Shown here in pieces: positions 5,429 through 47,143 of a stretch of 64,000 bases of DNA. The notes under the pieces are model-generated. The model had not been told where the DNA came from and made no database searches. It worked only from the letters and a program-made list of their open reading frames with translations. The stretch spans positions 1,798,001 through 1,862,000 of the forward strand of contig NZ_JACBZX010000001.1 in NCBI RefSeq assembly GCF_013408565.1, in the 5' to 3' direction. Position 1 is the stretch's first letter. Each line of letters starts with the position of its first letter. This DNA is from Janibacter alkaliphilus. GTDB taxonomy: Bacteria; Actinomycetota; Actinomycetes; Actinomycetales; Dermatophilaceae. The position numbers and the translations under genes were made by a program.

Positions 5429-5514
5429 TTTATCGGGTTACCCGATAATGCGCCGGTCCCCGGGGAAGCCTTCCCCCGCATGCGAGCGTTTATCGGGTAA
5501 CCCGATAAACGCTC
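5429..5514. repeat. composite palindromic repeat, locus 1 (two HP1 copies and one HP2)
   Basis: HP1 (TTATCGGGT-T-ACCCGATAA) lies at 5430-5448, HP2 (GGGGAAG-C-CTTCCCC) at 5462-5476, and a second HP1 at 5490-5508 is extended by GAGCG/CGCTC to 15-bp perfect arms (5484-5514). It fills the gap between convergent genes, and the second hairpin abuts the stop codon of the GNAT gene. It belongs to the five-locus family described in the findings. A role as bidirectional transcription terminator is possible, but there is no T-run after the stem. Confidence 0.85.
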
Positions 5515-6562
5515 AGGGCAGGCGCAGGTACTGGTAGGCGTGGTGGGGGCGCAGGCCGAGGTCGCGGTAGAGGGTCAGTGCCGCCTCGTTGGTGCTCTCG
5601 ACCTGCAGGTAGAGCGAGCGGACGCCCGCCTCGTGGGCCACGCGCGCCGCCGCCACCGACAGCCGCCGCCCGATCCCCAGACGCCGGTGCGGCATCGGCA
5701 CGCTCAGCCCGAAGATCCCGGCCCAGCCGTCGTTGACCGGCACCCGGACCACGCCGAGCACCTCCGGGCCGTCCTCCACCGACAGGAAGCGCTGGTCGGC
5801 AGGGCCGGTGACGACCCGCCGCGCGACGTCGCCGTGCGCGGCCACCGCCGGCCCGCAGGCCGCCCACCATCCCTCCGTGGGCTGCTCGCGCACCACGACC
5901 TGACCTGGCCCTGTGGTCTCGGCAGGAGCAGCACCGGCCACCTCGGCGCCGGTCACCTCGGTGCCGGCCACCTCGGCGCTCTCCCCGGTGAGCACCAGCA
6001 CCGGCGGGCCGAAGGGGGTGTACCCCCGTCTCAGCAGCTCGGCCCCCAGCGGGTCCGCCGCGACGGCGACCTCGGCGGATCCCGGTGGCCCGGGCAGCAT
6101 GACCAGCGGCCGCAGCCCGCGTTCCCGGTGCCACCCCGCGGCCATCTCCACCGCTTCTGGCAGCGGCACCCCGGGGTCCCCGAGGGGCAGCAGCGAGTTC
6201 GCCCTCCCGGTGTAGCCGCCGGCCGCGCGCAGCAGCCAGCCCCGCCCGGGGTCGCCGATCCAGGCACGCTCCAGCGGCGGGTTGCCCTCGGTCATCACCC
6301 GGTGCAGGTCGGCGACCCCGACCGCGCGGTGCGGGGCGCCGCGGCGGACCGGCCGCGGCGGCACCACCTTCGCCGCGACGATCTCGCTCCGTGAGAGGAC
6401 CACCGGACCGCGCCGCGACTCCAGGGTGACGCTCGCCTCGTCGACCGCGACCACCTCGCCGACGGTGTCGGTCAGCCGCGGCCCGTGCTCCGGTGGCGGG
6501 ACGATCCGGGCGCGCACCGCCATCCTCGTCCCTAAGGCGAACCTCACCTTCGCGTCGCTCAT
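5513..6562 (-). CDS. GNAT-family N-acetyltransferase with N-terminal SH3-like domain
   Basis: 349-residue protein. The N-terminal 60 residues form a small beta-rich domain ([11 protein letters not shown]... [25 protein letters not shown]), as in mycobacterial Rv0428c-type acetyltransferases; the middle is Pro/Ala-rich, and a GNAT domain occupies roughly residues 235-349. The acetyl-CoA pyrophosphate loop is seen in [11 protein letters not shown], followed by the Y-x-Q-V-E-x-x-N-x-x-A-L pattern of GNAT motif B. The substrate is unknown. Its ATG lies 7 nt after the TAGTAT of the promoter shared with fdxA, so the mRNA is probably leaderless; an in-frame ATG 9 nt upstream would overlap that box and is less likely. 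Confidence 0.8.
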
Positions 6563-6583
6563 CCGCCGCATACTATTGATCGC
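6563..6583. promoter_or_regulatory. symmetric divergent promoter between GNAT gene and fdxA
   Basis: The 21 bp between the two ATG codons contain one ATACTAT core (6570-6576). Read rightward it gives TACTAT ending 7 nt before the fdxA ATG; read leftward it gives TAGTAT ending 7 nt before the GNAT ATG. Neither gene has a Shine-Dalgarno sequence. Both transcripts would start at or within a base of their start codon. The overlap of two -10 boxes is read directly; transcription is inferred. Confidence 0.65.
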
Positions 6584-6910
6584 ATGACGTACGTGATCGC
6601 GCAGCCTTGTGTGGACCTGAAGGACAAGGCCTGCATCGAGGAGTGCCCGGTCGACTGCATCTACGAGGGTGAGCGCAGCCTCTACATCCACCCCGACGAG
6701 TGCGTCGACTGCGGTGCCTGCGAGCCGGTCTGCCCCGTCGAGGCGATCTACTACGAGGACGACGTGCCGGAGGAGTGGGCCGACTACTACAAGGCCAACG
6801 TCGAGTTCTTCGACGACCTCGGCAGCCCCGGCGGCGCCGCGAAGATGGGCATGATCAAGAAGGACCACCCGGTGATCTCCGTGCTGCCGCCGCAGGAGCA
6901 CGACGAGTGA
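6584..6910 (+). CDS. fdxA: seven-iron ferredoxin [3Fe-4S][4Fe-4S]
   Basis: 108-residue cytoplasmic electron carrier. Cysteines at 9, 17, 21, 25, 40, 43, 46 and 50 follow the pattern of actinobacterial seven-iron ferredoxins (FdxA/FdxC): [17 protein letters not shown] then [12 protein letters not shown]. The 50-residue C-terminal extension after the clusters ([22 protein letters not shown]) is normal for this type. It lies just upstream of dapC, the conserved actinobacterial arrangement (compare Rv1177-Rv1178). There is no ribosome-binding site before the ATG, and the -10 box TACTAT ends 7 nt upstream, suggesting a leaderless message. Redox partners cannot be read from this sequence. Confidence 0.95.
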
Positions 6911-6954
6911 CCCTGGGCGCCACCCGCCCCGCGGCCGCCTGAACGGGGGCGGCC

Positions 6955-8106
6955 GTGATCTCCTCGCTGCCCGACTTCCCCTGGGACTCGCTGCTCCCGG
7001 CGAAGGAGCGTGCCCGCGCCTTCACCGGCGCCACCCCGGACGAAGGGGAGGGGATCGTCGACCTGTCCGTCGGCACCCCGGTCGATCCCACCCCGCAGGT
7101 CGTCACCGACGCGCTCTCGGCCGCCGCCGACGCCCCCGGCTATCCGCAGACCTGGGGGACCCCTGACCTGCGCGAGGCCGTCGCCGACTGGTTCGCCCGG
7201 CGCCGCTCCGCGCCGGGCGTGGACCCGGACGGGGTGCTGCCGACGATCGGCTCCAAGGAGCTCGTCGCCTGGCTGCCCACCCTCCTGGGCCTCGGTCCCG
7301 GCGACGTCGTCGGCTTCCCCCGGGTGGCCTACCCCACCTACGACGTCGGGGCCCGCCTCGCCGGGGCGACCCCGACGCCGGCGGACGCCACCACCGCCTT
7401 CGGCCCGGCCGCGCCGCGGCTGCTGTGGCTGAACACCCCGAGCAACCCCACCGGGCAGGTCCTCGGGGTCGAGCACCTGCGCAAGGTCGTCGACTGGGCC
7501 CGCGAGCGCGGGGTGGTCGTCGCCTCCGACGAGTGCTACGCCGAGCTGGACTGGCGCACCGTCGAGGAGCGGGCCGCCGACGGCGACGGGCCGGACGCGG
7601 TGAGCACGCCCAGCCTGCTCGACCCGCGGGTGTGCGGCGGCGACCACACCGGGCTGCTGGTGGCCTACTCGCTGTCCAAGCAGTCCAACCTCGCCGGCTA
7701 CCGGGCCGCCTTCCTCGCCGGTGACCCGCGCCTGGTGGCCGGGCTGCTCGAGGTGCGCAAGCACGCCGGGATGATCGTGCCGTGGCCGGTGCAGCGGGCG
7801 ATGCTCGCCGCCCTGGGCGACGGGGGGCACGTCGCGGAGCAGAAGGCGCGCTACCGGGCCCGTCGGGGCGTGCTCGAGCCGGCGGTCGCGGCCGCCGGGC
7901 TGCGGGTCGACCACTCCCGGGCCGGCCTCTACCTCTGGGCCAGCGCGGACGAGCCCAGCCGGGTGACCGTGGACCGGCTGGCCGAGCGCGGGATCCTCGT
8001 CGCCCCTGGCGACTTCTACGGCACCGCCGGCGCGCAGCACGTGCGGATCGCGCTGACCGCGACCGACGAGCGGATCGCCGCCGCTGCCGCGCGGCTGGGC
8101 CGCTGA
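6955..8106 (+). CDS. dapC: succinyldiaminopimelate aminotransferase DapC
   Basis: 383-residue class I/II PLP-dependent aminotransferase that converts N-succinyl-2-amino-6-ketopimelate to N-succinyl-LL-diaminopimelate, using glutamate, in the meso-DAP/lysine pathway. The PLP lysine is Lys242 in SLSKQSNLAGYR; the NTPSNPTGQV segment and ASDECYAEL give the cofactor-binding Asn and Asp-x-x-Tyr. The GTG start follows a GGGGGCG purine tract and gives the standard MISSLPDFPWDSL N-terminus. It is 44 bp after fdxA, the usual actinobacterial pairing. With dapD and dapE in the same window, three steps of the succinylase route are encoded within 7 kb. Confidence 0.92.
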   Translation: MISSLPDFPWDSLLPAKERARAFTGATPDEGEGIVDLSVGTPVDPTPQVVTDALSAAADAPGYPQTWGTPDLREAVADWFARRRSAPGVDPDGVLPTIGSKELVAWLPTLLGLGPGDVVGFPRVAYPTYDVGARLAGATPTPADATTAFGPAAPRLLWLNTPSNPTGQVLGVEHLRKVVDWARERGVVVASDECYAELDWRTVEERAADGDGPDAVSTPSLLDPRVCGGDHTGLLVAYSLSKQSNLAGYRAAFLAGDPRLVAGLLEVRKHAGMIVPWPVQRAMLAALGDGGHVAEQKARYRARRGVLEPAVAAAGLRVDHSRAGLYLWASADEPSRVTVDRLAERGILVAPGDFYGTAGAQHVRIALTATDERIAAAAARLGR

Positions 8107-8242
8107 CTGGCCGGGACGCCCCGTCCACGAGGCGACCCCACATGGTCATCAGCGCCACGGCTGGGGTAGCGTCACAAGTGACCGGCGCGCCGGCCCACGA
8201 CGCCGTGCCGCGCCCATCCGTACAACATGAACGGGGAACGAC

Positions 8243-9526
<1,284 letters not shown>

Positions 9527-9546
9527 CCCACCCCTTCTCACGCACC

Positions 9547-9622
9547 GAACGAGCCTTTATCGGGTAACCCGATAAAGGCTCGTTCTCGTGGGAAGGCTTC
9601 TCCGGGGACCGAGAGGTTCTCG
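9547..9622. repeat. composite palindromic repeat, locus 2 (HP1-HP2-HP3)
   Basis: HP1 is here the longest in the window: 19-bp perfect arms around a single A (9547-9585), with the core TTATCGGGTAACCCGATAA at 9557-9575. It is followed by a degenerate HP2 (GGGAAGGCTTCTCC, about 9590-9603) and HP3 CGAGA-GGT-TCTCG at 9610-9622. It lies between the convergent genes for citrate synthase and the lysozyme-like protein. Confidence 0.85.
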
Positions 9623-9666
9623 ACATTCCGCGTGCCGCGACCTGCTGGCGAGCCGGTCGAGCGAGT

Positions 9667-9691
9667 GACCTTCCCGGGGCGAAGGGAGGTC
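9667..9691 (-). terminator. hairpin at the 3' end of the lysozyme-like gene
   Basis: GACCTTCC and GGGAGGTC form a 7-of-8-bp stem around a 9-nt loop, overlapping the stop codon (9690-9692) of the minus-strand gene. No T-run is visible. It is only a candidate terminator. Confidence 0.35.
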
Positions 9692-10610
9692 AGTCGTTGA
9701 GGGTGATGACCACCCGGGTGCCGTCCACCGGCGTGTCCGAGTCGTGCCACTCCAGCGCGTCGTTGCCGCCGCCACGCCGCCACTCCTGGCCGCCCACCTG
9801 GACCGCGGTGATCTGCCGGGCGCCCGCCTGAGCCACCGCCCAGGCACCGACCCCCCAGGCTCGGTCCGCGTCCGGCGCGTCGACGACCACCGTGATGCCG
9901 CTGCCGAGGTTCTCCTGGCTCGCGGTCAGGCCGGTCTGCTCGTCGATCGCCGAGATCAGCGTCTCCGGCCGCCCTGGCGCGTCGGGGTCGTCCAGCCGGC
10001 AGCCGATCGCCGCGGGGGAGTGGCCGGCGATGACCGAGGCGAGGGTGCGCCCTTCCTGCTCGTGGTCGGCGTACGCCTCGGGGTAGGCGCTGCGCTGCAC
10101 CTCCTGGGCGATCTCGGTGATCCGCATCTCCTCCCAGCCCTCGACCTGCACCAGGGCGTCGTAGAAGGCGGTGGTCGCGTAGATCGGGTCGAGCAGCTCG
10201 GCCTCGGTGCCCCAGCCCTGGCTCGGGCGCTGCTGGAAGAGCCCCACCGAGTCCCGGTCGCCGTAGGTGAGGTTGCGCAGCTTGGACTCCTGGATCGCCG
10301 TGGCCACCGCGATGCTCCCGCCCCGGGCGGGCAGCCCGCGCCGCACCCCGAGCTGGACGATCGTCGAGGCGTGGTTCACCTGCACCGGGTCGAAGGTGAC
10401 CGTCTCCCCGGCGGCGGTGGCCTCGCAGCTCTCCCCGAAGAAGAGCCCGATCCGGTCCCGGGCGTACCAGACCCCGGCCGCCACGACGGCGATCACGCAG
10501 AGGACGGCGACGAGCACGACGAGCCGCGAGGTGCCGGTGTCGGGCATCTCGGGCGGGTGCTCGGGGTCCTCCCCGCGGCGCGGGCGCCGGGGTCGCTCAG
10601 GGGTGGTCAC
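9690..10610 (-). CDS. membrane-anchored lysozyme-like (transglycosylase-fold) protein
   Basis: 306-residue protein: a charged Pro/Arg-rich cytoplasmic N-terminus, one membrane helix at about 30-50, then an extracellular domain. The segment IAVATAIQESKLRNL (Glu108) followed by DRDSVGLFQQRPSQGWGT matches the Glu-containing helix and the GLFQ-like motif of lysozyme-fold transglycosylases, so peptidoglycan cleavage or binding is plausible. Close relatives in databases have often been labelled as metal transporters, which the sequence does not support: there is only one membrane helix and no metal motif. GTG start 6 bp after the dapD stop, so the two form an operon. Activity is unproven. Confidence 0.7.
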   Translation of the reverse strand: MTTPERPRRPRRGEDPEHPPEMPDTGTSRLVVLVAVLCVIAVVAAGVWYARDRIGLFFGESCEATAAGETVTFDPVQVNHASTIVQLGVRRGLPARGGSIAVATAIQESKLRNLTYGDRDSVGLFQQRPSQGWGTEAELLDPIYATTAFYDALVQVEGWEEMRITEIAQEVQRSAYPEAYADHEQEGRTLASVIAGHSPAAIGCRLDDPDAPGRPETLISAIDEQTGLTASQENLGSGITVVVDAPDADRAWGVGAWAVAQAGARQITAVQVGGQEWRRGGGNDALEWHDSDTPVDGTRVVITLND

Positions 10611-10616
10611 GGGGGA

Positions 10617-11546
10617 TCAGTTGGCGTGCAGGGCCTCGTTCAGCGCGATGCCGTCGCCGGTGCGGTCGCGGGCCTCGACGGCGCCGGAGACCGAGTTCCG
10701 GATGAAGAGGAGCCCGTCCCGCCCGGAGAGCTCGCGCGCCTTGACGACGCCGCCGTCGGGCAGGGTGACCTTGGTGCCGGCGGTGAGGTAGAGCCCGGCC
10801 TCGACGACGCAGTCGTCGCCCAGGGCGATGCCGACCCCGGCCTCGGCGCCGACCAGGCAGCGCCGACCGATGGCGACCCGCTCGGTGCCGCCGCCGGAGA
10901 GGGTGCCCATCGTCGAGGCGCCGCCGCCGATGTCGGAGCCGTCACCGGCGACGACACCCTGGCTGATCCGCCCTTCGACCATCGAGGCGCCGAGGGTGCC
11001 GGCGTTGAAGTTGACGAAGCCCTCGTGCATCACGGTGGTGCCCTCGGACAGGTGGGCGCCGAGCCGGACCCGGTCGGCGTCGCCGATCCGGATGCCCGCC
11101 GGGGTCACGTAGTCGACCATCCGCGGGAACTTGTCGACCGAGTAGACGGTGACGTGGCCGCGTGCCCGCAGCTGGGCCCGGGTGAGCTCGAAGCCCTCCA
11201 CCGCGCACGGCCCGTGGTTGGTCCACACGACGTTGGTCAGCTGACCGAAGAGGCCGTCGAGGTTGATCGTGTTCGGCGCGACCAGCCGGTGGCTGAGCAG
11301 GTGCAGCCGCAGGTAGGCGTCGCTGCCGCCCGCCGGCGCCGCGTCGAGGTCGATGCTCACGGTGACCACCTCGGTGCGCACCCCGCGCGCGGCGTCCTCG
11401 CCGACGAGCGCGTCGAGCTCGGCCGGGGCGCTCACGCCCTCGGGGGCGTGACCCAGCGTCGGGCTCGGGTACCAGGTGTCCAGCACCGTCCCGTCGGCGG
11501 TGAGCGTGGCGAGGCCGTGGCCCCAGGCTGCGCGGGTCTCAGTCAT
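10617..11546 (-). CDS. dapD: tetrahydrodipicolinate N-succinyltransferase DapD
   Basis: 309-residue acyltransferase that puts succinyl from succinyl-CoA onto tetrahydrodipicolinate in the meso-DAP/lysine pathway. The C-terminal half is a left-handed parallel beta-helix built from hexapeptide repeats (about residues 160-270; [29 protein letters not shown]). The N-terminal domain and length match the actinobacterial type (M. tuberculosis DapD, 317 aa). Start ATG at 11546: TACCAT ends 6 nt upstream and there is no Shine-Dalgarno, so a leaderless start is likely; an upstream in-frame start at 11588 would include the promoter. It is co-transcribed with the lysozyme-like gene. Confidence 0.95.
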
Positions 11547-11666
11547 GCCCGAATGGTAGGCAACGGAGCGTGGTGCCTCCCAACTCACCCGTCCGGAGCA
11601 TCGGTTCGGCGACGGCGCGCGCTAGATTCCTCTCCGTCGCGAAGGCTCGTGAATGGAGGACGAGGC

Positions 11667-11696
11667 ATGAAGGCAACGCTGGCCTGTGGTGGATGA
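11667..11696 (+). CDS. 9-codon upstream ORF (possible leader peptide)
   Basis: ATG at 11667, preceded by a strong GGAGG 7 nt upstream (GGAGGACGAGGC-ATG), encodes MKATLACGG and stops at 11694-11696, inside the first codons of the following 150-residue gene, which starts in another frame at 11686 or 11689. The signals are read directly. It may couple translation of the next gene or mark a frameshift in a longer gene; no function is claimed. Confidence 0.4.
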   Translation: MKATLACGG

Positions 11697-12138
11697 CACT
11701 GCCCTCGATGACGATGGTTCGCTCGAGAACGACTGCTCGGTACGGCTCGTCTACGTGAGGTCGGGGCCTGGCGACGACTCCGTCGAACCCCTGGTGGCGG
11801 TTGTTGCGTCGGAGGCTGAGGCCCTGGCCATCTACCACGAGCTGGCGAGCAGGATGCCGGACGCGTACACGTCGTGGGAGCACCACCCGCTCCAGGGGTA
11901 CGAGATCGGCAGCACCCCGCCGGAGGTGGTGCACGTCGTGATGTCTGGGTGGGCGGAGGATCGCATGGCAGACGGTCCGCGGGAGATGACCGATCCGATC
12001 GGTGCGGCCGCCTTCGTCGACCTGGACGACGCAGGGCGCCTGGCTGCGGAGCTTGCTGCTGCTGAGGCTCCGGACTTCGCGGTGTGGTCACGCCGACTGG
12101 GCGAGCGGCGTCACGGGTGGCCCTTCGTCCCCTCCTGA
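11686..12138 (+). CDS. hypothetical protein, 150 aa, acidic
   Basis: I do not recognise this family. The product is small, acidic and cytoplasmic, with no signal peptide or membrane segment. The first 70 residues carry a beta-alpha pattern (VRLVYVRS... VEPLVAVVASEAEALAIYHELAS) and a region with two histidines (WEHHPLQGYEIG); the end is PDFAVWSRRLGERRHGWPFVPS. Two GTG codons (11686, 11689) could start it, neither with its own ribosome-binding site; the 9-codon ORF just upstream with a strong Shine-Dalgarno overlaps the start, so initiation by coupling is plausible. The base composition is a little less extreme than its neighbours, and it separates dapD from dapE, which are divergent here. Confidence 0.6.
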   Translation: MVDDTALDDDGSLENDCSVRLVYVRSGPGDDSVEPLVAVVASEAEALAIYHELASRMPDAYTSWEHHPLQGYEIGSTPPEVVHVVMSGWAEDRMADGPREMTDPIGAAAFVDLDDAGRLAAELAAAEAPDFAVWSRRLGERRHGWPFVPS

Positions 12139-12232
12139 GGCATCGGTCCAGACCAGCAGCAGCCTTCGGTGGCGGACGGCGTCGAGCGCGCGATCAGAAG
12201 GGCTGTCGCCGACCTTTTGTACGGTGGCGGGC

Positions 12233-13315
12233 ATGACAGACCAGCTCGACCTCGGCGCGGACATCGTCACGCTCACCCGGCAGCTCTGCGACATCGAGTC
12301 GGTCAGCCGTGACGAAGGGCGGATCGCCGACGCCGTCGAGGCCGCGCTGCGGGCGCTGCCGCACCTGAGCGTCAGCCGCACCGGGCACACCATCGTCGCC
12401 CGCACCGACCTCGGGCGCGACGAGCGGGTCGTGCTCGCCGGGCACCTGGACACCGTGCCGCTGACCGACCCGCCGAACCTGCCCACCCGCCTCGAGGAGC
12501 GCGACGGCGAGGAGGTGCTCTGGGGCCGCGGGACGGTGGACATGAAGGGCGGCGTCGCCGTCCAGCTCAAGGTCGCCGCGAACGTCCCCGAGCCGAGCCG
12601 CGACCTCACCTTCCTCTTCTACGAGGCCGAGGAGATCGAGGAGCGCTACAACGGCCTCAAGGCGCTCGGCGAGCGCGACCCCGAGGTGCTGCGCGAGGCC
12701 GACCTGGCGATCCTCTTCGAGGGCACCCGCGCCGAGGTCGAAGGGGGCTGCAAGGGCACCCTGCGGGTCGAGGTCCGCACCACCGGCACCGCCGCCCACT
12801 CGGCCCGGCCCTGGCGCGGGCACAACGCCATCCACGACGCGGCCGACGTGCTGCAGCGGCTGCGCGACCACATCCAGCAGGAGGTCGAGGTCGACGGCCT
12901 GACCTACCACGAGGCGCTGCAGGCGGTCGGCATCCGCGGCGGCATCGCCGGCAACGTCGTCCCCGACGAGTGCGTCGTCACCGTCAACTACCGCTTCGCC
13001 CCGGACAAGAGCGGCGAGCAGGCGCTCGCCCACGTCCAGGACGTCTTCGACGGCTACGAGCTCACCGTCACCGACCTCGCCGAGGGCGCCCGCCCCGGCC
13101 TGGACCGCCCGGCGGCGCAGGCCTTCGTCGCCGCCCTGGGCGTCCCGGTCGGCCCCAAGGAGGGGTGGACCGACGTCGCCCGCTTCTCCGCGCTCGGCGT
13201 CCCGGCGATCAACTTCGGCCCGGGCGACCCGGGGCTGGCCCACCAGGCCGACGAGCACACCCCGACGGCGCAGCTGCGAGCCGCGGAGGCCGCCGTGCTG
13301 CGCTGGCTCGCGTAG
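12233..13315 (+). CDS. dapE: succinyl-diaminopimelate desuccinylase DapE
   Basis: 360-residue M20-family zinc hydrolase that removes succinate from N-succinyl-LL-diaminopimelate, the step after DapC. Metal and catalytic regions are visible: LAGHLDTVP (His, Asp), WGRGTVDMKGG (bridging Asp), YEAEEIEE (catalytic Glu and ligand) and the C-terminal ligand His in GLAHQADEHTP. Start ATG at 12233: the box TACGGT (12220-12225) ends 7 nt upstream and there is no Shine-Dalgarno, so a leaderless mRNA is likely. A longer in-frame start at 12002 would run through the preceding gene and is rejected. The stop TAG doubles as the start of the next gene's -10 box. Confidence 0.93.
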   Translation: MTDQLDLGADIVTLTRQLCDIESVSRDEGRIADAVEAALRALPHLSVSRTGHTIVARTDLGRDERVVLAGHLDTVPLTDPPNLPTRLEERDGEEVLWGRGTVDMKGGVAVQLKVAANVPEPSRDLTFLFYEAEEIEERYNGLKALGERDPEVLREADLAILFEGTRAEVEGGCKGTLRVEVRTTGTAAHSARPWRGHNAIHDAADVLQRLRDHIQQEVEVDGLTYHEALQAVGIRGGIAGNVVPDECVVTVNYRFAPDKSGEQALAHVQDVFDGYELTVTDLAEGARPGLDRPAAQAFVAALGVPVGPKEGWTDVARFSALGVPAINFGPGDPGLAHQADEHTPTAQLRAAEAAVLRWLA

Positions 13316-13324
13316 GTTGGCCCC

Positions 13325-14092
13325 GTGAGCCAGCAGAGCCAGCCGCCGGAGCGCAGCTACCACAAGGGCCCGGTGCTCATGCGTGGCGCGCAGGTGCCGC
13401 GCTCGACCACCGACCAGCGGCTGCTGGATACCTCCGGCACCGCCGACTGGGTGCACACCGACCCGTGGCGGGTGCTGCGCATCCAGGCCGAGTTCGTCGA
13501 GGGCTTCGGCGCGCTCGCCGAGCTGGGCCCGGCGATCACCGTCTTCGGCAGCGCCCGGCTCGGCGCCGGCACCCGGTGGTACGACGAAGGGGTGCGCCTG
13601 GGGGAGGCCCTCGTCCGCGAGGGCTACGCCGTGATCACTGGAGGCGGGCCCGGCGCGATGGAGGCCGCCAACAAGGGCGCGAAGGAGGCCGGCGGCACCT
13701 CCGTCGGTCTGGGCATCGAGCTCCCCTTCGAGGCCGGGCTCAACCCCTACGTGGACCTCGGGGTGAACTTCCGCTACTTCTTCGCCCGGAAGACGATGTT
13801 CGTCAAGTACGCGATGGGCTTCATCGTGCTGCCGGGGGGCTTCGGCACCCTGGACGAGCTCTTCGAGGCCCTGACCCTCGCGCAGACCGGCAAGGTCACC
13901 TCCTTCCCGGTGGTGCTCGTCGGCCGCGACTACTGGGGCGGGCTGCTGGACTGGCTCCGTGAGAGCGCGCTCGGCGACGGCATGGTCTCGCCGGAGGACA
14001 TCGACCGGCTCTACCTCACCGACGACGTCGACGAGGCCGTGGCCTACGTCCGCTCCGCCTCCGCCCGCGCCGTCGGCGACCCGGAGGGCTGA
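13325..14092 (+). CDS. LOG-family nucleoside-monophosphate phosphoribohydrolase (TIGR00730)
   Basis: 255-residue Rossmann-fold protein of the LOG (cytokinin-activating) family, which cleaves the N-glycosidic bond of nucleoside 5'-monophosphates. The two family signatures are present: GGGPGAMEAAN at 106-116 and PGGFGTLDE at 170-178. The N-terminal 60 residues (YHKGPVLMRGAQVPRSTTDQRLL) are an extension found in the actinobacterial TIGR00730 subgroup next to dapE (compare Rv1205). The GTG start lies 6 nt after TAGGTT (13313-13318), which overlaps the dapE stop codon, so it probably has its own leaderless promoter inside the dapE end. The physiological substrate here is not known. Confidence 0.88.
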   Translation: MSQQSQPPERSYHKGPVLMRGAQVPRSTTDQRLLDTSGTADWVHTDPWRVLRIQAEFVEGFGALAELGPAITVFGSARLGAGTRWYDEGVRLGEALVREGYAVITGGGPGAMEAANKGAKEAGGTSVGLGIELPFEAGLNPYVDLGVNFRYFFARKTMFVKYAMGFIVLPGGFGTLDELFEALTLAQTGKVTSFPVVLVGRDYWGGLLDWLRESALGDGMVSPEDIDRLYLTDDVDEAVAYVRSASARAVGDPEG

Positions 14093-14096
14093 GCCG

Positions 14097-14501
14097 GTGG
14101 TCTGGGTCCTCTTCATCGTCGTCGCGGTGCTCGTCTGCGCGGTCACCGCCGCGCTGATCACCGGGCGGCTGGTCGGCGACCCGATGGCCGAGGCCCGTGC
14201 CAGCACCCCGGACCCGGGGCTCAGCCCGGGCTTCGCCGTGGCCGACATCGACGAGGTCCGCTTCGACACCGCGCTGCGCGGCTACCGGATGGACCAGGTC
14301 GACGACGTCCTCGACCTGCTGCAGGCGCGGATCGCCGAGCTCGAGGGCGGCGCCCCGGCGGCGTCCGAGGGCAAAGCCGCACCGGCCAGCACCGACGAGC
14401 TCGTGCTGGACCGGTCCGTGCCCGCCGAGCGACCCGCGCCCGACGAGCCGACCGCGCCGGCCGAGCGGCCCGCCCCCGCCGACCCCGACGGCCCGCGATG
14501 A
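14097..14501 (+). CDS. DivIVA-domain membrane protein
   Basis: 134-residue protein. Residues 3-22 form a membrane helix (VWVLFIVVAVLVCAVTAALI); residues 40-80 carry the DivIVA-like motif (VADIDEVRFDTALRGYRMDQVDDVLDLL), which in full-length DivIVA/Wag31 marks polar or septal membrane sites; the rest is a Pro/Ala-rich tail. It is much shorter than real DivIVA and has no long coiled coil. GTG start, 5 bp after the LOG gene stop. Its position after dapE and LOG matches the conserved actinobacterial order (compare Rv1209). The role is unknown. The stop overlaps the next ATG (ATGA). Confidence 0.75.
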   Translation: MVWVLFIVVAVLVCAVTAALITGRLVGDPMAEARASTPDPGLSPGFAVADIDEVRFDTALRGYRMDQVDDVLDLLQARIAELEGGAPAASEGKAAPASTDELVLDRSVPAERPAPDEPTAPAERPAPADPDGPR

Positions 14502-14995
14502 CCGCCGTCGAGGAGCGGGCCCGCTGCACCGCCCCAGTGGCGGTCCTCTGGGAGGTGCTCATGGACCTCCCGGCGACCACCGAGCAGGTGCCGCTGACCA
14601 CGGGCACCGGCGACCCCGGGCCGGTCCGGCTGGGCTGGTCCTTCACCGCGCGCACCAGCCTGGGCCCGCTGCACCTCGACGACGAGATGGTCGTCACCGG
14701 CCTGACCCCGCCGAGCGACGGGTCGCCGGGGCGGGTGCGGATCCTCAAGACCGGGCGGCTGCTCGCCGGGTGGGCCGAGATCGAGGTGCGCCCCGATGAC
14801 GAGGGCAGCGACGGCCGCGACGGCGACGGCAGCCTGCTCGTGTGGCGCGAGGAGGTCGGTCCACGGGCTGCGCCGCTGGCCGCGCTGACCCCCGGCCCGC
14901 TGCAGGACCGGTCCACCCGCGAGTTGCTGCGCCGGATGGTCGCGGACGTGGTCGCCCGCGCCGAGCAGCGCGCCGACGGACCGGTCCCCGGGTGA
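14498..14995 (+). CDS. SRPBCC (START-like) family protein
   Basis: 165-residue protein of the polyketide cyclase/START-like superfamily, whose members bind hydrophobic ligands in a helix-grip fold. The recognisable features are the opening VEERARCTAPVAVLWEVLMDLPATTEQVP, the central beta strands (VRLGWSFTARTSLGPLHLDDEMVVTGL) and the C-terminal helix LLRRMVADVVARAEQR. It is cytoplasmic, with no signal peptide. It overlaps the DivIVA-like gene (ATGA) and the mannosyltransferase gene (GTGA), so the three are co-translated. The ligand is unknown and cannot be inferred from context. Confidence 0.75.
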   Translation: MTAVEERARCTAPVAVLWEVLMDLPATTEQVPLTTGTGDPGPVRLGWSFTARTSLGPLHLDDEMVVTGLTPPSDGSPGRVRILKTGRLLAGWAEIEVRPDDEGSDGRDGDGSLLVWREEVGPRAAPLAALTPGPLQDRSTRELLRRMVADVVARAEQRADGPVPG

Positions 14996-16281
14996 CCGTC
15001 GCCGACCGCCCGCGCACGACGGTGCGCGAGCTGCTCTCCAGCGACGGACGGCACACCGTCTTCCAGCGGTGCCTGCACCGCCCGGTCCGCTCGCTGCTGG
15101 TCATCTACGCCATCAGCCGGCTGATCGCCCTGCTGGCCATCTGGGTGGCCGCCCGCTACTACCAGAACCCGGCGGGTGTCGGTCACCTCGAGCCCGGGCT
15201 GGCCGACATGTTCCTGCTCTGGGACAGCGACTGGTACCACCAGATCGTCACCGACGGCTACCCGATCCCGCTGCCGGCCAACCCCCGCACCGGCGACATC
15301 ACCTACAGCTCGTGGGCGTTCTTCCCGCTCTTCCCCGGGCTGGTGCGCCTGGTGATGCTCACCGGCCTCGACTTCACCGCCTCGGCGGTCCTGCTCAACG
15401 TCCTGCTCGGCGCCGGCGCCACCATCCTCGTCTGGAAGGTGCTCAGCCACCCCGGCCACGCCGCCTCGCAGCCGGCCCGCGACCGGCTCGCCTTCGTCGC
15501 CGCCGCCCTGTGGTGCTTCTACCCGGCGACCGGGGTGATGCTGCTGCCCTACACCGAGGCGCTGGCGGCGCTGCTCATCACCGGGGCGCTGCTGCTGCTC
15601 ATGCGCCAGCAGTACCTCTGGGCGACGGTCGTGGTGCTGCTCATCGGCTTCTCCCGCGGGGTCGCCGCGCCGCTCGGACTGGCCGTGCTGGCCCACCTGG
15701 CGGTGCGCTGGCGCGACGACCGGGCCGCCGGCGTCCCGGTCTTCGCCCACGACCGCGCCAAGATCGCCGCCCTGGTCCTGGCCACCGGCATCTCCGGGGT
15801 CGCCTGGCCGCTGACCGTCGGCTACCTCTCCGGCCTGCCGGACGCCTTCTTCCAGGTGCAGGCCGCCTGGGGGCAGCGCCCCGACGAGGGCCCCTTCGTG
15901 CTGTGGTTCAACTGGGCCTTCACCGAGCGCGGCTGGATGGGCGTCATCGTCATGGTCGGGCTGGTCGCCACCTACCTGGCGCTGGTCCTCGGCCGCCACG
16001 GCCGGTGGATCCCGCTGGAGGTGCGGATGTGGGCGGTTGCCTACCCGCTCTACCTCTTCGCCGTGGTCCGCCCGATCACGAGCATGTGGCGCTTCCTGCT
16101 GCTCGACGTGCCGCTGGCCGCGCTGGTGGCCTCGGTGACCATGCGCACCTCGACCGGCCAGCAGGTGGTGCGGCACTGGCGCCGCCGCGCGGTGGTCGTC
16201 GTGCTCGTGTGCATCGGCGGCATCTTCGCCTGGTCGTGCGGTCTGCTGCCCTACGTGCCCTGGCACGTCACCCCACCGTGA
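14992..16281 (+). CDS. PIG-V-type mannosyltransferase (GT-C fold membrane protein)
   Basis: 429-residue integral membrane protein with about 8-9 predicted helices. The segment LWDSDWYHQIVTDGYP near residues 77-92 holds the D-x-D/E-type acidic motif in the first outer loop of GT-C enzymes that use polyprenyl-phosphate sugars, and SSWAFFPLFPGLVRL is the conserved follow-up of the PIG-V/GPI mannosyltransferase 2 family. In actinobacteria such proteins mannosylate lipids or secreted proteins outside the membrane. The substrate is not shown by the sequence. GTG start overlaps the previous stop (GTGA). It sits where mycobacteria have gpgP-region genes, so a glycolipid role fits but is inferred. Confidence 0.75.
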   Translation: MTVADRPRTTVRELLSSDGRHTVFQRCLHRPVRSLLVIYAISRLIALLAIWVAARYYQNPAGVGHLEPGLADMFLLWDSDWYHQIVTDGYPIPLPANPRTGDITYSSWAFFPLFPGLVRLVMLTGLDFTASAVLLNVLLGAGATILVWKVLSHPGHAASQPARDRLAFVAAALWCFYPATGVMLLPYTEALAALLITGALLLLMRQQYLWATVVVLLIGFSRGVAAPLGLAVLAHLAVRWRDDRAAGVPVFAHDRAKIAALVLATGISGVAWPLTVGYLSGLPDAFFQVQAAWGQRPDEGPFVLWFNWAFTERGWMGVIVMVGLVATYLALVLGRHGRWIPLEVRMWAVAYPLYLFAVVRPITSMWRFLLLDVPLAALVASVTMRTSTGQQVVRHWRRRAVVVVLVCIGGIFAWSCGLLPYVPWHVTPP

Positions 16282-16395
16282 GCCGGATTAGCGGCGACGC
16301 ACCTCGCGAGGGATAATGGGGGCCTGACAACTGGCGCACCGCGTCGACGTCGGCGAGGTCGCCGAGGTCATCCAGTGATGAAGGGAACACGAGTC

Positions 16396-16569
16396 ATGGC
16401 TGCCATGAAGCCGCGCACGGGAGACGGGCCCCTCGAGGTCGTCAAGGAGGGCCGCGGCATCGTGCTGCGGATGCCCCTGGAGGGTGGCGGCCGCCTGGTC
16501 GTCGAGATGACCCCCGACGAGGTCAAGTCGCTCGGCGAGGCGATCGACAGCTGCGAGGGCCTGTCCTGA
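16396..16569 (+). CDS. DUF3117 small protein
   Basis: 57-residue protein that matches the actinobacterial DUF3117 family almost end to end (AAMKPRTGDGPLEVVKEGRG, then GRLVVEMTPDEVKSLGEAID). The function is unknown. The ATG at 16396 follows AAGGGAACACGAG; an in-frame ATG nine bases on (MKPRTG) and one at 16375 are possible alternatives, but the family begins close to AAMKPRTG. It has its own upstream gap of about 115 bp and is followed by a very strong hairpin terminator, so it is transcribed alone, as for its mycobacterial equivalent (Rv1211). Confidence 0.9.
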   Translation: MAAMKPRTGDGPLEVVKEGRGIVLRMPLEGGGRLVVEMTPDEVKSLGEAIDSCEGLS

Positions 16570-16588
16570 CGCCAGTCCTCCCGCACGC

Positions 16589-16624
16589 ACGCGGCCCCCG
16601 GAGCGATCGCTCCGGGGGCCGCGT
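16589..16624 (+). terminator. strong perfect-palindrome terminator after the DUF3117 gene
   Basis: 36-nt perfect palindrome, 18-bp arms (ACGCGGCCCCCGGAGCGA), centred on GCGATCGC. It starts 20 bp after the DUF3117 stop. There is no T-run, as is common in high-GC actinobacteria. It also lies 26 bp before the -10 box of pepA and would insulate it. Confidence 0.75.
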
Positions 16625-16662
16625 CGTGCCCCGGGGCATGTCCGGCGGCTAGGGTCGAGCGC

Positions 16663-18129
16663 GTGCCGGACGACGACCTGCTGAGCCCCCCGACCACCGA
16701 CCTGCGCGCCGCGGCCACCCTCGGGGAGGCGCTCGCCGAGCTGCCCGAGCCGGCCGTGGACCTGCTCGTCGTCGACCGCGAGCGGGTCGAGGAGCTGGCC
16801 GCCGCCGGCCTGCGCGTCGCCGGCACCGAGCACGTCCGCTGGCCCGAGGACCCGGACGAGCTGGTGGTGATCGGCCGCGCCGACGGCGAGCGGCCGGTGC
16901 TGGTCAGTGCGGCCGCGCCGACCCCCACCGCGACCGCGCTGCGTACCCTCGGCGCCCGCATCGGACGGGCCGGGACCGGCCTCGGTCAGGTGGTCGTGGC
17001 GGTCGCCGGCGACGACCTGCGGCCGCTGCTGGAAGGGCTGCTGCTGGGCGGGCACCAGCCGGTCGCGCGGCGAGCCTCCGGGCCGGTGCCCGGGGCACGG
17101 CCAGCCGGGCGCACGGTCGTCGTGGGCGCCGCGGCCGAGGATCTGTCGCAGGTCGCCACGGCTGTCCGGGCCGGTCTGCTCGCCCGCAACCTGGCCAACG
17201 CCCCCTCCAACGTCAAGGATCCGCAGTGGATGGTCGAGCGGGCCCGTGCGGTGGCCGAGCGCCGCGGCCTGGACATGACCGTCCTCGAGGAGGACGCGCT
17301 CGCCGAGCGCGGCTACGGCGGGCTCGTCGCCGTCGGCGGGGGCTCGGTTAGCCCGCCGCGGCTGGTGCAGCTCGCGTACCGGCCGGACGGGGCGAAGGGC
17401 GGTGCACCGCACGTGGTCCTCGTCGGCAAGGGGATCACCTTCGACACCGGCGGGGTCAACGTCAAGCCGGCCGCCGGGATGCTGGCCATGCGCACCGACA
17501 TGTCCGGCTCGGCGGTCGTGCTGGCGGTGATCGACGCCGCCGCCGCGCTCGGGCTGCCGCTGCGGGTGACCGCGCTGCTGCCGCTCGCCGAGAACGCGAT
17601 CGGCGGCGCCTCCTACCGCCCCGACGACGTCATCACCCCCTACGGCGGGCGGCGCACGGTGGAGATCACCAACACCGACGCCGAGGGCCGGCTGGTGCTC
17701 GCCGACGCGCTGGCCCACGCCGACATCCACCTCGACCCGGACCTGGTCGTCGACGTCGCCACCCTGACCGGGGCCGCCCGGGTGGCCCTGGCCCGCAGCA
17801 TGGCCGCCCTCTTCAGCGACGACGACGAGCTCGCCGCCGGGCTGCTCGCCGCCGGCGAGCGCACCGGGGAGCCCTTCTGGAGGCTGCCGCTGCACCACGC
17901 CTACCGGCCGATGCTGGACAGCGCGGTGGCCGACCTGGACAACGCCCCCGGGCAGGCCGGGGCGATCACCGCGGCCCTCTTCCTCGCCGAGTTCGTCGGG
18001 GACCGGCGCTGGGCGCACCTGGACATCGCCGGCCCCGGGCGGTCGGATGATGACACCGGGCTGCTCAGCGAGGGCGCGACCGGCTACGGTGCCCGGGCAC
18101 TGCTCACCTGGCTGGAGGACCTGACATGA
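16663..18129 (+). CDS. pepA: leucyl aminopeptidase (M17)
   Basis: 488-residue two-metal cytosolic aminopeptidase. The C-terminal catalytic domain has all landmarks: KGITFDTGG (Lys256), the metal-ligand stretch MRTDMSGSA, and the family signature NTDAEGRL at 337-344. The N-terminal domain (1-150) is divergent and Ala/Gly-rich as usual. The GTG start lies 7 nt after TAGGGT (16650-16655) with no Shine-Dalgarno, so it is probably translated from a leaderless mRNA. It overlaps the next small gene by 4 bp. PepA-type DNA binding in plasmid recombination is a feature of the E. coli protein and should not be assumed here. Confidence 0.93.
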   Translation: MPDDDLLSPPTTDLRAAATLGEALAELPEPAVDLLVVDRERVEELAAAGLRVAGTEHVRWPEDPDELVVIGRADGERPVLVSAAAPTPTATALRTLGARIGRAGTGLGQVVVAVAGDDLRPLLEGLLLGGHQPVARRASGPVPGARPAGRTVVVGAAAEDLSQVATAVRAGLLARNLANAPSNVKDPQWMVERARAVAERRGLDMTVLEEDALAERGYGGLVAVGGGSVSPPRLVQLAYRPDGAKGGAPHVVLVGKGITFDTGGVNVKPAAGMLAMRTDMSGSAVVLAVIDAAAALGLPLRVTALLPLAENAIGGASYRPDDVITPYGGRRTVEITNTDAEGRLVLADALAHADIHLDPDLVVDVATLTGAARVALARSMAALFSDDDELAAGLLAAGERTGEPFWRLPLHHAYRPMLDSAVADLDNAPGQAGAITAALFLAEFVGDRRWAHLDIAGPGRSDDDTGLLSEGATGYGARALLTWLEDLT

Positions 18130-18500
18130 ACGCCGGATACGGGATGTCCGTGAGGTGGTCGCTGGCCGACGCCCCCGACGGGGTGGAGGAGCAGCTGCGC
18201 GAGTACGTCGTCGGCACGTCGATGGCGAACTTCATGTTCCTCGACGGGCTCGCCTTCAAGACGTGGCGGATGCGGGCCGGGGAGTGGTTCGAGGGGACCT
18301 ACGTCTTCGGCGAGGCCCGGGACCGGGACGCCTTCCTCGAGGGCTTCCGTCCGGGCGCGGCCACCGCCCCCGGCAGCGAGATCATCGGGTCCGCCCCGAC
18401 GCACATCGAGACCTTCGAGGTGGTCGCCGTCGCCGAGGGGCCGGCGCAGTTCCGCCGCGGCCCCGGCCCGGGGACCGACGGCGCGCCGCAGCGGGTCTGA
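18126..18500 (+). CDS. conserved hypothetical, possible dimeric alpha/beta-barrel (YdhR-like) protein
   Basis: 124-residue cytoplasmic protein. The pattern MSVRWSLADAPDGVEEQLREYVVG, then FLDGLAFKTWRMRAGEWFEGTYVF and EARDRDAFLEGFR resembles small ferredoxin-like monooxygenase-fold proteins (YdhR/ABM type): strand-helix-strand with a central Trp and a helix ending in a conserved Phe. The match is by eye and modest. ATG overlaps the pepA stop (ATGA), so it is co-translated with the aminopeptidase. The last 25 residues are a Pro/Gly-rich tail. The function is unknown. Confidence 0.6.
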   Translation: MNAGYGMSVRWSLADAPDGVEEQLREYVVGTSMANFMFLDGLAFKTWRMRAGEWFEGTYVFGEARDRDAFLEGFRPGAATAPGSEIIGSAPTHIETFEVVAVAEGPAQFRRGPGPGTDGAPQRV

Positions 18501-18512
18501 GGCCGTCGCGGG

Positions 18513-19145
18513 TCAGCGCTTGACGGCGGTGAGCAGCCCGTCGCCGACCGGCAGCAGCGCGCTGACCAGCCGCTCGTCGTCCCGGATCTGCTTGCCGAGG
18601 TCGCGCAGCAGCACGGTCGTCTCGTCCCGGCTGGCCGGGTCGGCGACCTTGTCGTGCCAGAGCATGTTGTCCATGGCCAGCAGCCCGCCCGGGCGCAGCA
18701 GCCGGATCGCGTGCTCGACGTAGTCCGGGTAGCCGGCCTTGTCGGCGTCCACGTGCACCAGGTCGTAGGAGGCGTCGTTCATCCGGGGCAGCACGTCCAC
18801 GGCGGCACCGGTGATGACCCTGGTCCGCTGCGCCGGCACCCCGGCGGCGGTGTAGGCCTGCCGGGCGGCCCGCGCGTGCTCCGGCTCGATCTCGATGGTG
18901 GTCAGCACCCCGTCCGCGGGCATGCCCCCGAGCAGCCACAGGCCGGAGGAGCCGCCGCCCGCGCCGATCTCCACGACGTGCCGGGCACCGACGGCGGCGG
19001 CCAGCAGGCGCAGCGTCGACCCGCCACCGGTGCCGATCGGCGCGGCCCCGAGCTCTGCCCCGCGCAGCCGCGCCTGCTCCGTGGCGGGCTCCTCGGCGAC
19101 GAAGCCCTCGGCGTAGGTGATCGAGGCGATACGGCTGGCGCTCAT
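18513..19145 (-). CDS. SAM-dependent O-methyltransferase (class I, family 3)
   Basis: 210-residue Rossmann-fold methyltransferase of the catechol/caffeoyl-CoA O-methyltransferase type. SAM motif I is [15 protein letters not shown] (about 57-71); the metal-binding Asp residues are in [15 protein letters not shown] and LLAMDNMLW. It lies back to back with sigE, the same arrangement as Rv1220c-Rv1221 in mycobacteria. Start ATG at 19145, 8 nt after a TAGTCT box on the minus strand; an in-frame ATG 9 nt further upstream is possible. The acceptor substrate is unknown. Confidence 0.88.
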
Positions 19146-19221
19146 GGAGGGCAAGACTAGTCCGGGCGGGCGCCGGGCCCGGTCACAGGCTGCGCCCAGG
19201 TTGGTCGCGCACCATGGACGG

Positions 19222-19851: not shown

Positions 19852-19906
19852 CGCGGATCGCCGGGGACGGCCGCACGCCGTCGCCGCGACACGGCAGAAT
19901 CGGGGC

Positions 19907-24647: not shown

Positions 24648-24714
24648 TTTATCGGGTTACCCGATAATCGCTCGCTCCCCGGGGAAGCCTTATCCGGGAA
24701 CCGAGAGGTTCTCC
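24648..24714. repeat. composite palindromic repeat, locus 3 (HP1-HP2-HP3)
   Basis: HP1 TTATCGGGT-T-ACCCGATAA at 24649-24667, a degenerate HP2 (GGGGAAGCCTTATCC) at 24681-24695, and HP3 (CGAGA-GGT-TCTC) at 24702-24713. It lies after the 3' end of the minus-strand hypothetical gene and upstream of the MgtE-N/CBS promoter, 23 bp from its -10 box. Confidence 0.85.
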
Positions 24715-32032: not shown

Positions 32033-32100
32033 GAGCGTCGGGCGTCTGGACAGCAGGCGCCGCGCGTCGGGACGCCGACGGGGGAGAAGCGCTCGGATGC

Positions 32101-32150
32101 GGGAGAAGCCTTCCCCGGCGAACGGGACATTATCGGGTTACCCGATAAAG
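32101..32150. repeat. composite palindromic repeat, locus 4 (HP2-HP1, inverted orientation)
   Basis: HP1 TTATCGGGT-T-ACCCGATAA lies at 32130-32148, and an HP2-like GGGAGAAGCCTTCCCC at 32101-32116 on its left, so the unit points opposite to the other loci. No clear HP3 is present. The TAA of pdxT (32138-32140) lies at the centre of HP1, so the repeat supplies the end of the pdxT reading frame. Confidence 0.85.
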
Positions 32151-40551: not shown

Positions 40552-40563
40552 CCGCCGGTGATC

Positions 40564-44309: not shown

Positions 44310-44394
44310 CCGGCGTGCCGGTCCGAGCCCGGCGGCGCACCTGACAAGATGGCCCCGGCACATCGACCAGGGGGACCGAGGAGGAAGGCCGCGC

Positions 44395-45168: not shown

Positions 45169-47042
45169 ACCCGCGGGACGAGCTCGCCCGCCAGGTCACC
45201 CGGGCCCGACGGGCCTGGCAGCGCACCGAGGGGGACCCGGCCGCGCGCAAGGAGATGGGCCGCACCGCGGTGCGCCGGGCCCGCAAGAAGGTCACCGCCT
45301 GGCGGCACGGGGTGCGCACCACCGTCGCGCTGCCTGCTGCCGAGATCCCGGACGGGCCGGTGGAGCGCCCCGACCTGCGGGTCGCGGTGATCCTCGACCC
45401 CTTCTCCGAGATGGCGTTCCGCTACGAGTGGGACCAGGTGCTGATCACCCCCTACGGGTGGCGGGCCGAGCTCGAGGCGCGCCGGCCGGCGCTGCTCTTC
45501 GTCGAGTCGGCGTGGCAGGGCAACCGCGGCGCGTGGCGGCTGGCGATGTCCACCGAGCGCGGTCCCAGCGCCGAGCTGGTGGAGCTCGTCGCGTGGTGCC
45601 GCGAGCAGGGCATCCCCACGGTCTTCTGGAACAAGGAGGACCCGCCGAACTACGACCGCTTCATCGAGACGGCGCGGCTCTTCGACCAGGTCTTCACCGT
45701 CGATGCCGACAAGATCCCCACCTACGTCGCCGACCTCGGGCACGAGAAGGTGGGGCTGCTCCCCTTCGCCGCGCAGCCGCGGATCCACAACCCGGTCCAG
45801 CGCGGCCCGGGCCGGGTCCGTGAGGTCGCCTTCGCCGGCACCTACTTCGCCGACAAGCACCCGGAGCGGCGCGAGCAGATGGACGTCCTGCTCGGCGCGG
45901 CGCTGGAGCACGACCTGGAGATCTGGTCTCGGCAGCAGGGTGACGACCCGCGCTACCGCTTCCCGGCACGCTTCGCCCGGCGGATCGTCGGCTCGCTGCC
46001 GTACGAGCAGATGCTGTCGGCCTACACCGCCTACAAGGTCTTCCTCAACGTCAACTCCGTGACGGAGAGCCCGACGATGGGCGCGCGCCGGCTCTTCGAG
46101 CTGTCCGCCGCGCAGACGGCCATCCTCTCCGGGCCGGCCGCCTCGATCGAGCCCTTCTTCGGCGACACGATCACCGTCGCCACCGAGCCCGAGGCCGCCC
46201 GCCGGGACCTCAAGGTGCTGCTGGAGCAGGACGCCTACCGCGACCGGCTGGCGCTGCGGGCGCACCGGCGGGTCTTCGATGAGCACCTCTACCGGCACCG
46301 GGTCGACACCGTGCTGGCGAGCACCGGCGTGGCCGCGCGCGAGCCGGACCGGTCGCTCTCCGCGGTCGTGGCGACGATGCGCCCGCACGAGCTGGAGCGG
46401 GTCGCGGCCAACCTCGCCCGGCAGCGGCACACCGACCGTGAGCTCGTGCTGGTCACGCACGGCTTCGAGGCGCCCGCGGGGCTGGTCGAGCGGTGGCGCG
46501 ACGAGCACGGGCTGGAGGCGGTGACGGTCGTGCCGGCCGAGGGCGGGCTGACCCTCGGCGCCTGCATGAACCTCGGCGTCGCGGCGGCCTCCGGGCGGTA
46601 CGTGACGAAGATGGACGACGACAACTACTACGGCCCGGGCTACCTGCAGGACCTGGTGCGCGCCTTCGACTACACCGACGCCGCCGTGGTCGGGAAGTGG
46701 GCCCACCACGTGCACCTCGCCGCGACCGACGCGACCGTGCTGCGCTTCGCCCACGCCGAGCACCGCTACACCCGGCTGGTCCAGGGCGGGACGATCATGA
46801 CCGCGCGGGACACGCTCGCCGACATCCCCTTCCGGGACATGCCGCGGGCGGTGGACACCACCTTCCTCGAGGCCGTGCACGAGGCCGGGGGTCGGGTCTA
46901 CTCGGCCGACCGCTTCGAGTACGTCTCGCGGCGGGCGGCGAGCACCGAGGGGCACACCTGGGGGATCGGCGACCTGGAGCTGCTCAGCCGCTCCTCGCAG
47001 CTGCTCTTCTACGGCGACCCCACCGCCCACGTCACCGTCTGA
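45165..47042 (+). CDS. two-domain glycosyltransferase (CgeB-like plus GT2)
   Basis: 625-residue cytoplasmic protein. After a basic helical start (about 1-50), residues 65-400 resemble CgeB/spore-maturation-type GT-B glycosyltransferases (VFWNKEDPPNYDRF, VFTVDADKIPTYV, VAFAGTYFADKHPERR, GARRLFELSAAQT), and residues 405-610 a GT-A family 2 domain with ACMNLGVAAASGRYVTKMDDDNYY, where DDD is the metal-binding motif. A protein with two transferase domains can add two sugars in turn. The target is unknown; teichoic-acid-like or surface polymers are possible. It is coupled to ParA by a GTGA overlap, an unusual pair. A composite palindromic repeat follows. Confidence 0.82.
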   Translation: MNPRDELARQVTRARRAWQRTEGDPAARKEMGRTAVRRARKKVTAWRHGVRTTVALPAAEIPDGPVERPDLRVAVILDPFSEMAFRYEWDQVLITPYGWRAELEARRPALLFVESAWQGNRGAWRLAMSTERGPSAELVELVAWCREQGIPTVFWNKEDPPNYDRFIETARLFDQVFTVDADKIPTYVADLGHEKVGLLPFAAQPRIHNPVQRGPGRVREVAFAGTYFADKHPERREQMDVLLGAALEHDLEIWSRQQGDDPRYRFPARFARRIVGSLPYEQMLSAYTAYKVFLNVNSVTESPTMGARRLFELSAAQTAILSGPAASIEPFFGDTITVATEPEAARRDLKVLLEQDAYRDRLALRAHRRVFDEHLYRHRVDTVLASTGVAAREPDRSLSAVVATMRPHELERVAANLARQRHTDRELVLVTHGFEAPAGLVERWRDEHGLEAVTVVPAEGGLTLGACMNLGVAAASGRYVTKMDDDNYYGPGYLQDLVRAFDYTDAAVVGKWAHHVHLAATDATVLRFAHAEHRYTRLVQGGTIMTARDTLADIPFRDMPRAVDTTFLEAVHEAGGRVYSADRFEYVSRRAASTEGHTWGIGDLELLSRSSQLLFYGDPTAHVTV

Positions 47043-47073
47043 GCCCCACCCGCCCCGATCTCCCACCTGTCCC

Positions 47074-47143
47074 CGCTTTATCGGGTTACCCGATAAAGCG
47101 CCGGTTACCGGGGAAGGCTTCTCAGGTTTTCGAGAGGTTCTCG
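47074..47143. repeat. composite palindromic repeat, locus 5 (HP1-HP2-HP3)
   Basis: HP1 core TTATCGGGT-T-ACCCGATAA at 47078-47096, extended to 13-bp arms (47074-47100); HP2-like GGGGAAGGCTTCTC at 47110-47123; HP3 CGAGA-GGT-TCTCG at 47131-47143. It stands 35 bp after the glycosyltransferase stop and 90 bp before the -10 box of the regulator gene. Confidence 0.85.

Follow-up and report, generated by a model that had tools for sequence, protein, structure and literature searches.

The palindrome TTATCGGGTNACCCGATAA, 19 bp long and here called HP1, recurs within a 64,000-nt stretch of the genome of Janibacter alkaliphilus (the window; positions 1,798,001-1,862,000 of C1, a single contig of 3,323,277 bp), where it forms part of a composite repeat unit together with a second and a third palindrome (HP2 and HP3). 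These units are probably non-autonomous copies of the end of a genetic unit that resembles the repetitive extragenic palindromic (REP) sequences and their REP-associated tyrosine transposases (RAYT), with a partner gene that encodes an AbiEi-like protein fused to a Vsr-like nuclease. The pairing of gene and palindrome is well supported: in the genome sequences, palindromes of fixed sequence are dispersed, a gene is flanked by them and the variants of the two are matched, while the fold of the gene product is predicted by modelling. To our knowledge, REP/RAYT is the best known case of a gene and dispersed palindromes evolving as a pair, and the present system looks like an independently evolved counterpart of it.

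The partner gene is enclosed most plainly in four congeners (G002, G006, G007, and G009), where pairs of HP1 about 1.1-1.3 kb apart bracket a single gene with a product of about 300 amino acids. In J. alkaliphilus (G000) it encodes 313 amino acids and lies outside the window (C1:2804986-2805927), with one unit directly after its stop codon and an oppositely oriented unit past the next gene. Homologues at E ≤ 1e-10 occur in 105 of the 119 genomes of the family (Dermatophilaceae). At E ≤ 1e-35, every one of the 22 genomes in which either palindrome type reaches five copies or more has a homologue, vs. 18 of the 97 others (Fisher p = 2e-13, uncorrected for relatedness). The gene was found beside its own palindrome in 20 of the 22 repeat-bearing genomes, and on both sides in 19 of them (G002, G007, G009, G022, G032, G230, G484, G486, G487, G490, G495, G499, G508, G514, G517, G522, G016, G466, and G468); the twentieth is G000, which is flanked directly on one side only, the second, inverted unit lying beyond a DJ-1/PfpI gene. 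A strict test for pairs of odd palindromes alone recovered 10 of 30 loci, and the other flanked loci were recognized by core matches, by a 39-bp inverted repeat (G484) or by palindromes that deviate at one or two positions (G487, G514, G522). Three more homologues of the nuclease are encoded in the J. alkaliphilus genome (C1:1529485-1530363, 3122352-3123230, and 154950-155813), none less than 9 kb from an HP1 by coordinates; the first has its own 26-bp inverted repeat in its flanks. G230 has a second homologue (loci L261 and L285; G230:C3:89668-90555), whose flanks carry another inverted repeat, 35 bp long and starting CTTTCCCGCC.

Sequence comparison and modelling predict that the product consists of an AbiEi-like DNA-binding part, with an N-terminal winged helix and a following domain, fused to a Vsr/homing-endonuclease-like PD-(D/E)XK nuclease. 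AbiEi_4 was recognized in 57 of 58 homologues, and the predicted Vsr-like PD-(D/E)XK domain carries the conserved acidic residues. A sequence comparison with PDB chains gave no match to the protein; matches came from fold comparison alone. The three neighbours tested around the J. alkaliphilus gene encode UvrC, DJ-1/PfpI, and Rieske proteins, and neither a DUF1814 (AbiEii) toxin nor a modification enzyme is among them.

Flanking and dispersed palindromes agree in several genomes. The flank in G002 is the dispersed variant, TTCTCGGGTNACCCGAGAA in most copies, and the flank of G517, GTATCGGGTNACCCGATAC, turned up at one dispersed place as well; for G495 (flank GTATCGGGTNACCCGATAC), G484 (TTATCGGGTCGCCCGATAA), and G487 (TTATCGGGTTRTCCGATAA), the numbers of copies counted with mismatches allowed and disallowed are consistent with the variant in the flank. 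The gene of G016 and G466 is flanked by TTTCGGGGTNACCCCGAAA. If gene and palindrome are a pair, TTTCGGGGTNACCCCGAAA should therefore be dispersed in these two genomes, and the prediction held, with 37 copies within one mismatch in G016 and 25 in G466. The same search found 14 copies in G468 and 45 in G517, both of which have a gene flanked by TTTCGGGGTNACCCCGAAA, four in G495 with one mismatch each, and none in the other 114 of the 119 family genomes, J. alkaliphilus included. G517 contains two systems, in which each of the two genes is paired with a different palindrome.

The type of palindrome tracks the phylogeny of the nuclease. In a 29-protein tree, from which G490 and a short piece from G522 were left out, the palindrome types need five changes (least possible four), and shuffled assignments need 16.0 on average, none of 200 being as low. 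Three palindrome types are single clades, and nine of ten palindrome-free homologues sampled fall into one separate clade; two of the palindrome-free homologues have other inverted repeats. The gene adjoins uvrC at seven fetched loci from six genomes (G000, G487, G468, G466, G016, and one of the two G517 genes). The six uvrC-linked genes form one group (support 90/94), and the palindrome therefore switched between the TTATCGGGT and TTTCGGGGT types, in either direction, at one shared location.

Inverted flanks extend beyond the family. A homologue at E ≤ 1e-20 is present in 155 of 296 genomes of the class, and among the best 30 loci, 26 of which lie outside the family, an inverted repeat of 16 bp or more common to a gene's own two flanks was found at 20 (17 of the 26 outside-family loci). 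Among mismatched flank pairs, some of which join related species, 17 of 870 share such a repeat. In an even draw of 394 genomes across the class, the exact 19-mer is present in two, J. alkaliphilus and one family member. Within two mismatches, 21 of the 119 family genomes are positive (19 with 5 to 66 copies, two with one) and 98 have none, and presence often differs between species of one genus. The same 19-mer was read in six congeners and two other genera, where its centre is nearly always C or G and where it adjoins hairpins of entirely different sequence. In the congener G004 (L150:111-219), an HP1 follows a tRNA-Arg gene at a distance of 14 bp.

A sequence-only reading had proposed a repeat family from the copies in the window; the whole J. 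alkaliphilus genome holds 64 exact 19-mers, not merely those few, and none of the reversed control pattern. With the surroundings of all 64 copies read and oriented, they align gap-free over about 85 bp as one unit, which runs from a C-rich box or longer HP1 arm through HP1, an AGGCTCG-like spacer and HP2 (around AAG-S-CTT) to HP3, GAGAGGTTCTC. HP3 looks like a truncated second HP1. A full second HP1 takes its place, with starts exactly 60 bp apart, at window positions 5430/5490 and in three other exact pairs of this genome; the 60-bp spacing recurs in G022 and G466.

The HP2-HP3 copies share a mean pairwise identity of 73% (549 of 3,008 cells differ from the commonest letter). Because the HP1 copies had been selected as exact, this ascertainment bias was checked by a search for HP2-HP3 that ignored HP1. 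At 53 of the 55 places found, an exact HP1 stands precisely where it is expected (some places share one HP1); one of the other two has an HP1 with a single mismatch (1909340), and the last is a known unit read in mirror form. Allowing up to two mismatches adds two copies to the 64, and the 13-bp core is present 65 times. HP1 is thus kept intact while HP2 and HP3 drift. Across the 64 copies, compensatory change in the HP2 and HP3 pairs is not clear beyond shuffles, and RNA structure was rejected on this ground as the main constraint; some HP2 arms are nevertheless matched, since 5 of 64 units have identical arms vs. 0.5 expected under random pairing.

In the window, all six copies reported by the sequence-only reading (5430, 5490, 9557, 24649, 32130, and 47078) are exact and centred on T or A as it described, and 100 dinucleotide shuffles gave no match. 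The arms were also said to be extended in some copies, which they are, by 10 bp beyond the basic 9 bp at 9557, 6 bp at 5490, and 4 bp at 47078; those at 5430, 24649, and 32130 are not extended. HP2 adjoins every copy, and the HP3 sequence GAGAGGTTCTC is seen at three loci. The five loci are as follows (gene context from a simple in-house gene caller, which applies throughout).

5430-5508, no strand assigned: double unit of HP1 (5430-5448), HP2 (5454-5484), and HP1 (5490-5508), between convergent genes.
9557-9622, plus strand: unit of HP1 (9557-9575), HP2 (9581-9611), and HP3 (9610-9622), between convergent genes, with HP1 arms of 19 bp.
24649-24714, plus strand: unit of HP1 (24649-24667), HP2 (24673-24703), and HP3 (24702-24714, final base deviating), between tandem genes.
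32083-32148, minus strand: unit of HP1 (32130-32148), HP2 (32094-32124), and the HP3 variant GAGCGCTTCTC (32083-32095), between convergent genes.
47078-47143, plus strand: unit of HP1 (47078-47096), HP2 (47102-47132), and HP3 (47131-47143), between tandem genes, with a C-rich box directly ahead of it (47061-47077).

A called minus-strand gene stops inside the HP1 at 32130-32148, its TAA being made by the palindrome centre GGGTAACCC. No Rfam family matched the window at or above its gathering score, and an empty-site comparison near 47078 did not find the flanking genes in the relatives' loci L016-L039. Half-sites of the DNA-uptake type were rejected, the 9-mer being found in the window only within complete palindromes. 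A separate short motif, CCCTTCGCCCC / GCGAAGGGGG, is repeated beside genes and units in J. alkaliphilus and its congeners (in the window near 9686 and 48926).

All five window loci have at least one gene ending toward them, and the three described as convergent are so. The generalization that the units always lie at gene 3' ends breaks down genome-wide: 28 of the 64 copies are in convergent, 27 in tandem, and 8 in divergent gaps, and one is inside a called open reading frame (ORF). Among 63 cases, the HP1 side is turned to the end of a gene in 42 and to the start of one in 21, and the unit is therefore no directional 3'-end signal. The GC skew of the sampled fragments shows no clear origin. 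The intragenic unit is in frame within an ORF with ABC_tran domains (L101:2717-4555 = C1:363518-365356), adds roughly 25-30 residues, and precedes a weak C-terminal-domain match.

The proposal of a specialized terminator, or of a stabilizer of RNA 3' ends, that serves gene ends in both directions is quite improbable. Convergent gaps are indeed enriched (25 of 58 unit-bearing gaps vs. 36 of 170 gaps that lack a unit and are 30 bp or longer, in the fetched stretches; Fisher p = 0.002), and the RNA of the five window units folds with z from -1.7 to -7.4. However, a T-tract is missing on either side, as the longest T-run within 12 nt is at most 3 past HP1, 2 past HP3, and 2 on the opposite strand beyond HP1 in all 64 copies; a scan of positions 1-20000 gave no terminator-like match at 5430, 5490, or 9557. 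The lack of orientation to genes and of clear HP2/HP3 compensation argues against it as well. In the gap between rpmB and thiL (identified as genes of L28- and AIRS-domain proteins), the J. alkaliphilus unit is an addition to a different hairpin that stands ahead of it, itself without a T-run. The orthologous gap of all 15 congeners has a hairpin followed by a T-run of at least 5 in 12 nt (in G002, G007, and G009, by T-rich sequence with interruptions), and the 260 bp downstream of rpmB (159 bp in G015) contain nothing within six mismatches of HP1. The bidirectional terminator is thus not supported, and a terminator or stabilizer role may be a secondary effect. Other short palindromic repeats, around TGCATTGCC/GGCAATGCA and CCTTAAGG, stand in this gap in G010 (L271), G012 (L269), and G015 (L275) and are perhaps further repeat families.

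A fixed network of binding sites, in which the AbiEi-like nuclease or another conserved protein would bind HP1 at dozens of intergenic places for chromosome organization or silencing, and in which host selection rather than mobility would keep the sites, is unlikely, although it would account for an HP1 that is nearly invariant amid varying neighbours and for chromosome positions that do not differ from uniform (Kolmogorov-Smirnov p = 0.21). Some species of a genus have the sites and others do not, the rpmB-thiL gap is without a unit in 15 congeners, one unit is in frame inside an ABC-transporter-type ORF, and the partner gene stands between inverted units, just as a RAYT gene stands between REPs. 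The earlier suggestion that HP1 is a binding site of a chromosome-organizing protein fits as far as protein binding goes; the likely binder would be the AbiEi-like part of the partner nuclease and not a general organizer. Matches of the N-terminal part to AbiEi defence models, together with the Vsr-like nuclease part, might also suggest a defence or addiction device, with the nuclease destroying DNA depending on whether it contains HP1 and the dispersed copies marking or protecting the chromosome. This is very improbable: the three tested neighbours are of other kinds, and the repeats of G490 persist despite a broken flanked gene.

REP/RAYT systems have dispersed palindromes, inverted double units, a partner gene between two inverted copies and co-variation of partner and palindrome (PMC2817692). 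The present repeats are likewise dispersed, doubled in inverted orientation, gene-flanking and co-varying with their partner, with inverted copies around the gene in 19 of 22 genomes and directly on one side in J. alkaliphilus. However, the gene is no RAYT: the partner is an AbiEi-like protein with a Vsr-like nuclease of another fold, and the repeats number in the tens. A GTAG/GTGG head abuts HP1 in none of the 64 copies and occurs somewhere in the unit, on either strand, in 16; the Y1 transposase domain PF01797 has no match in the J. alkaliphilus genome, whereas 5 of 14 control genomes matched. Lacking both, the system is REP/RAYT-like in its working and no member of that class. The label of REP- or BIME-like (bacterial interspersed mosaic element) given by the sequence-only reading therefore holds for the organization (a dispersed and composite repeat that forms inverted double units and, among relatives, encloses the partner gene with inverted copies) and not for membership.

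TIRtrons have a gene between terminal inverted repeats, and some of these repeats also form dispersed families (PMC3733652). They share with the present system inverted repeats that stand at gene ends and are dispersed, but their TIRYT genes encode HUH tyrosine transposases. The homing endonuclease I-Bth0305I and the Vsr endonuclease, whose type of nuclease fold the present protein is predicted to share, differ from it in that its nuclease is joined to an AbiEi-like part and has tens of cognate palindromes as its counterpart. Proteins of the AbiEi family bind inverted repeats (PMC7319586). The AbiEi of type IV toxin-antitoxin systems has the same N-terminal winged helix and following domain, whereas the present protein carries a nuclease part and has no DUF1814 toxin among its three tested neighbours. 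A literature search found nothing that describes such repeats together with an AbiEi/Vsr-like gene, which is weak evidence of absence given its thin coverage of subscription papers and bioRxiv.

Several points weigh against the interpretation of the units as ends of a nuclease-encoding genetic unit. The binding, cutting, and copying or mobility of the palindromes by the nuclease are steps that we infer. Clear homologues occur in 18 of 97 genomes without these repeats, and in G457 and G510 (5 and 6 copies) no HP1-flanked gene was found in the loci examined. The 5' unit of J. alkaliphilus is parted from the gene by the DJ-1/PfpI gene, and in G490 (L253, C2) the flanked gene has an in-frame TGA, yet 28 palindromes are kept. 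The dispersed copies of G484, G487, and G495 were counted, their sequences being unread, and the rpmB-thiL gap has diverged too far between species to define junctions or a target-site duplication, the mark of a MITE of a DDE transposon.

In the mechanism proposed for the nuclease-palindrome pair, the AbiEi-like part would bind the 19-bp palindrome as two half-sites and the nuclease would cut at or near it. Repair or copying would then spread the unit and preserve HP1 while HP2 and HP3 drift, and units would persist mainly where insertion is tolerated, that is, between genes and above all between convergent ones. More tentatively, with the balance slightly against it, the system could belong to an Actinomycetes-wide class of selfish repeats independent of HUH enzymes, in which an AbiEi protein with a Vsr/homing-type nuclease copies its own palindromic ends in lineage-specific dialects, altered palindromes being purged or corrected so that only exact ones survive.

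If the nuclease reading is true, a second, unrelated enzyme family has the organization of REP/RAYT, and such arrangements evolve more than once. Many genes now named merely as AbiEi-domain or very-short-patch-repair-like would then have a function. The spread and exactness of palindromic repeats without a classical transposase would become testable with one protein and one 19-mer.

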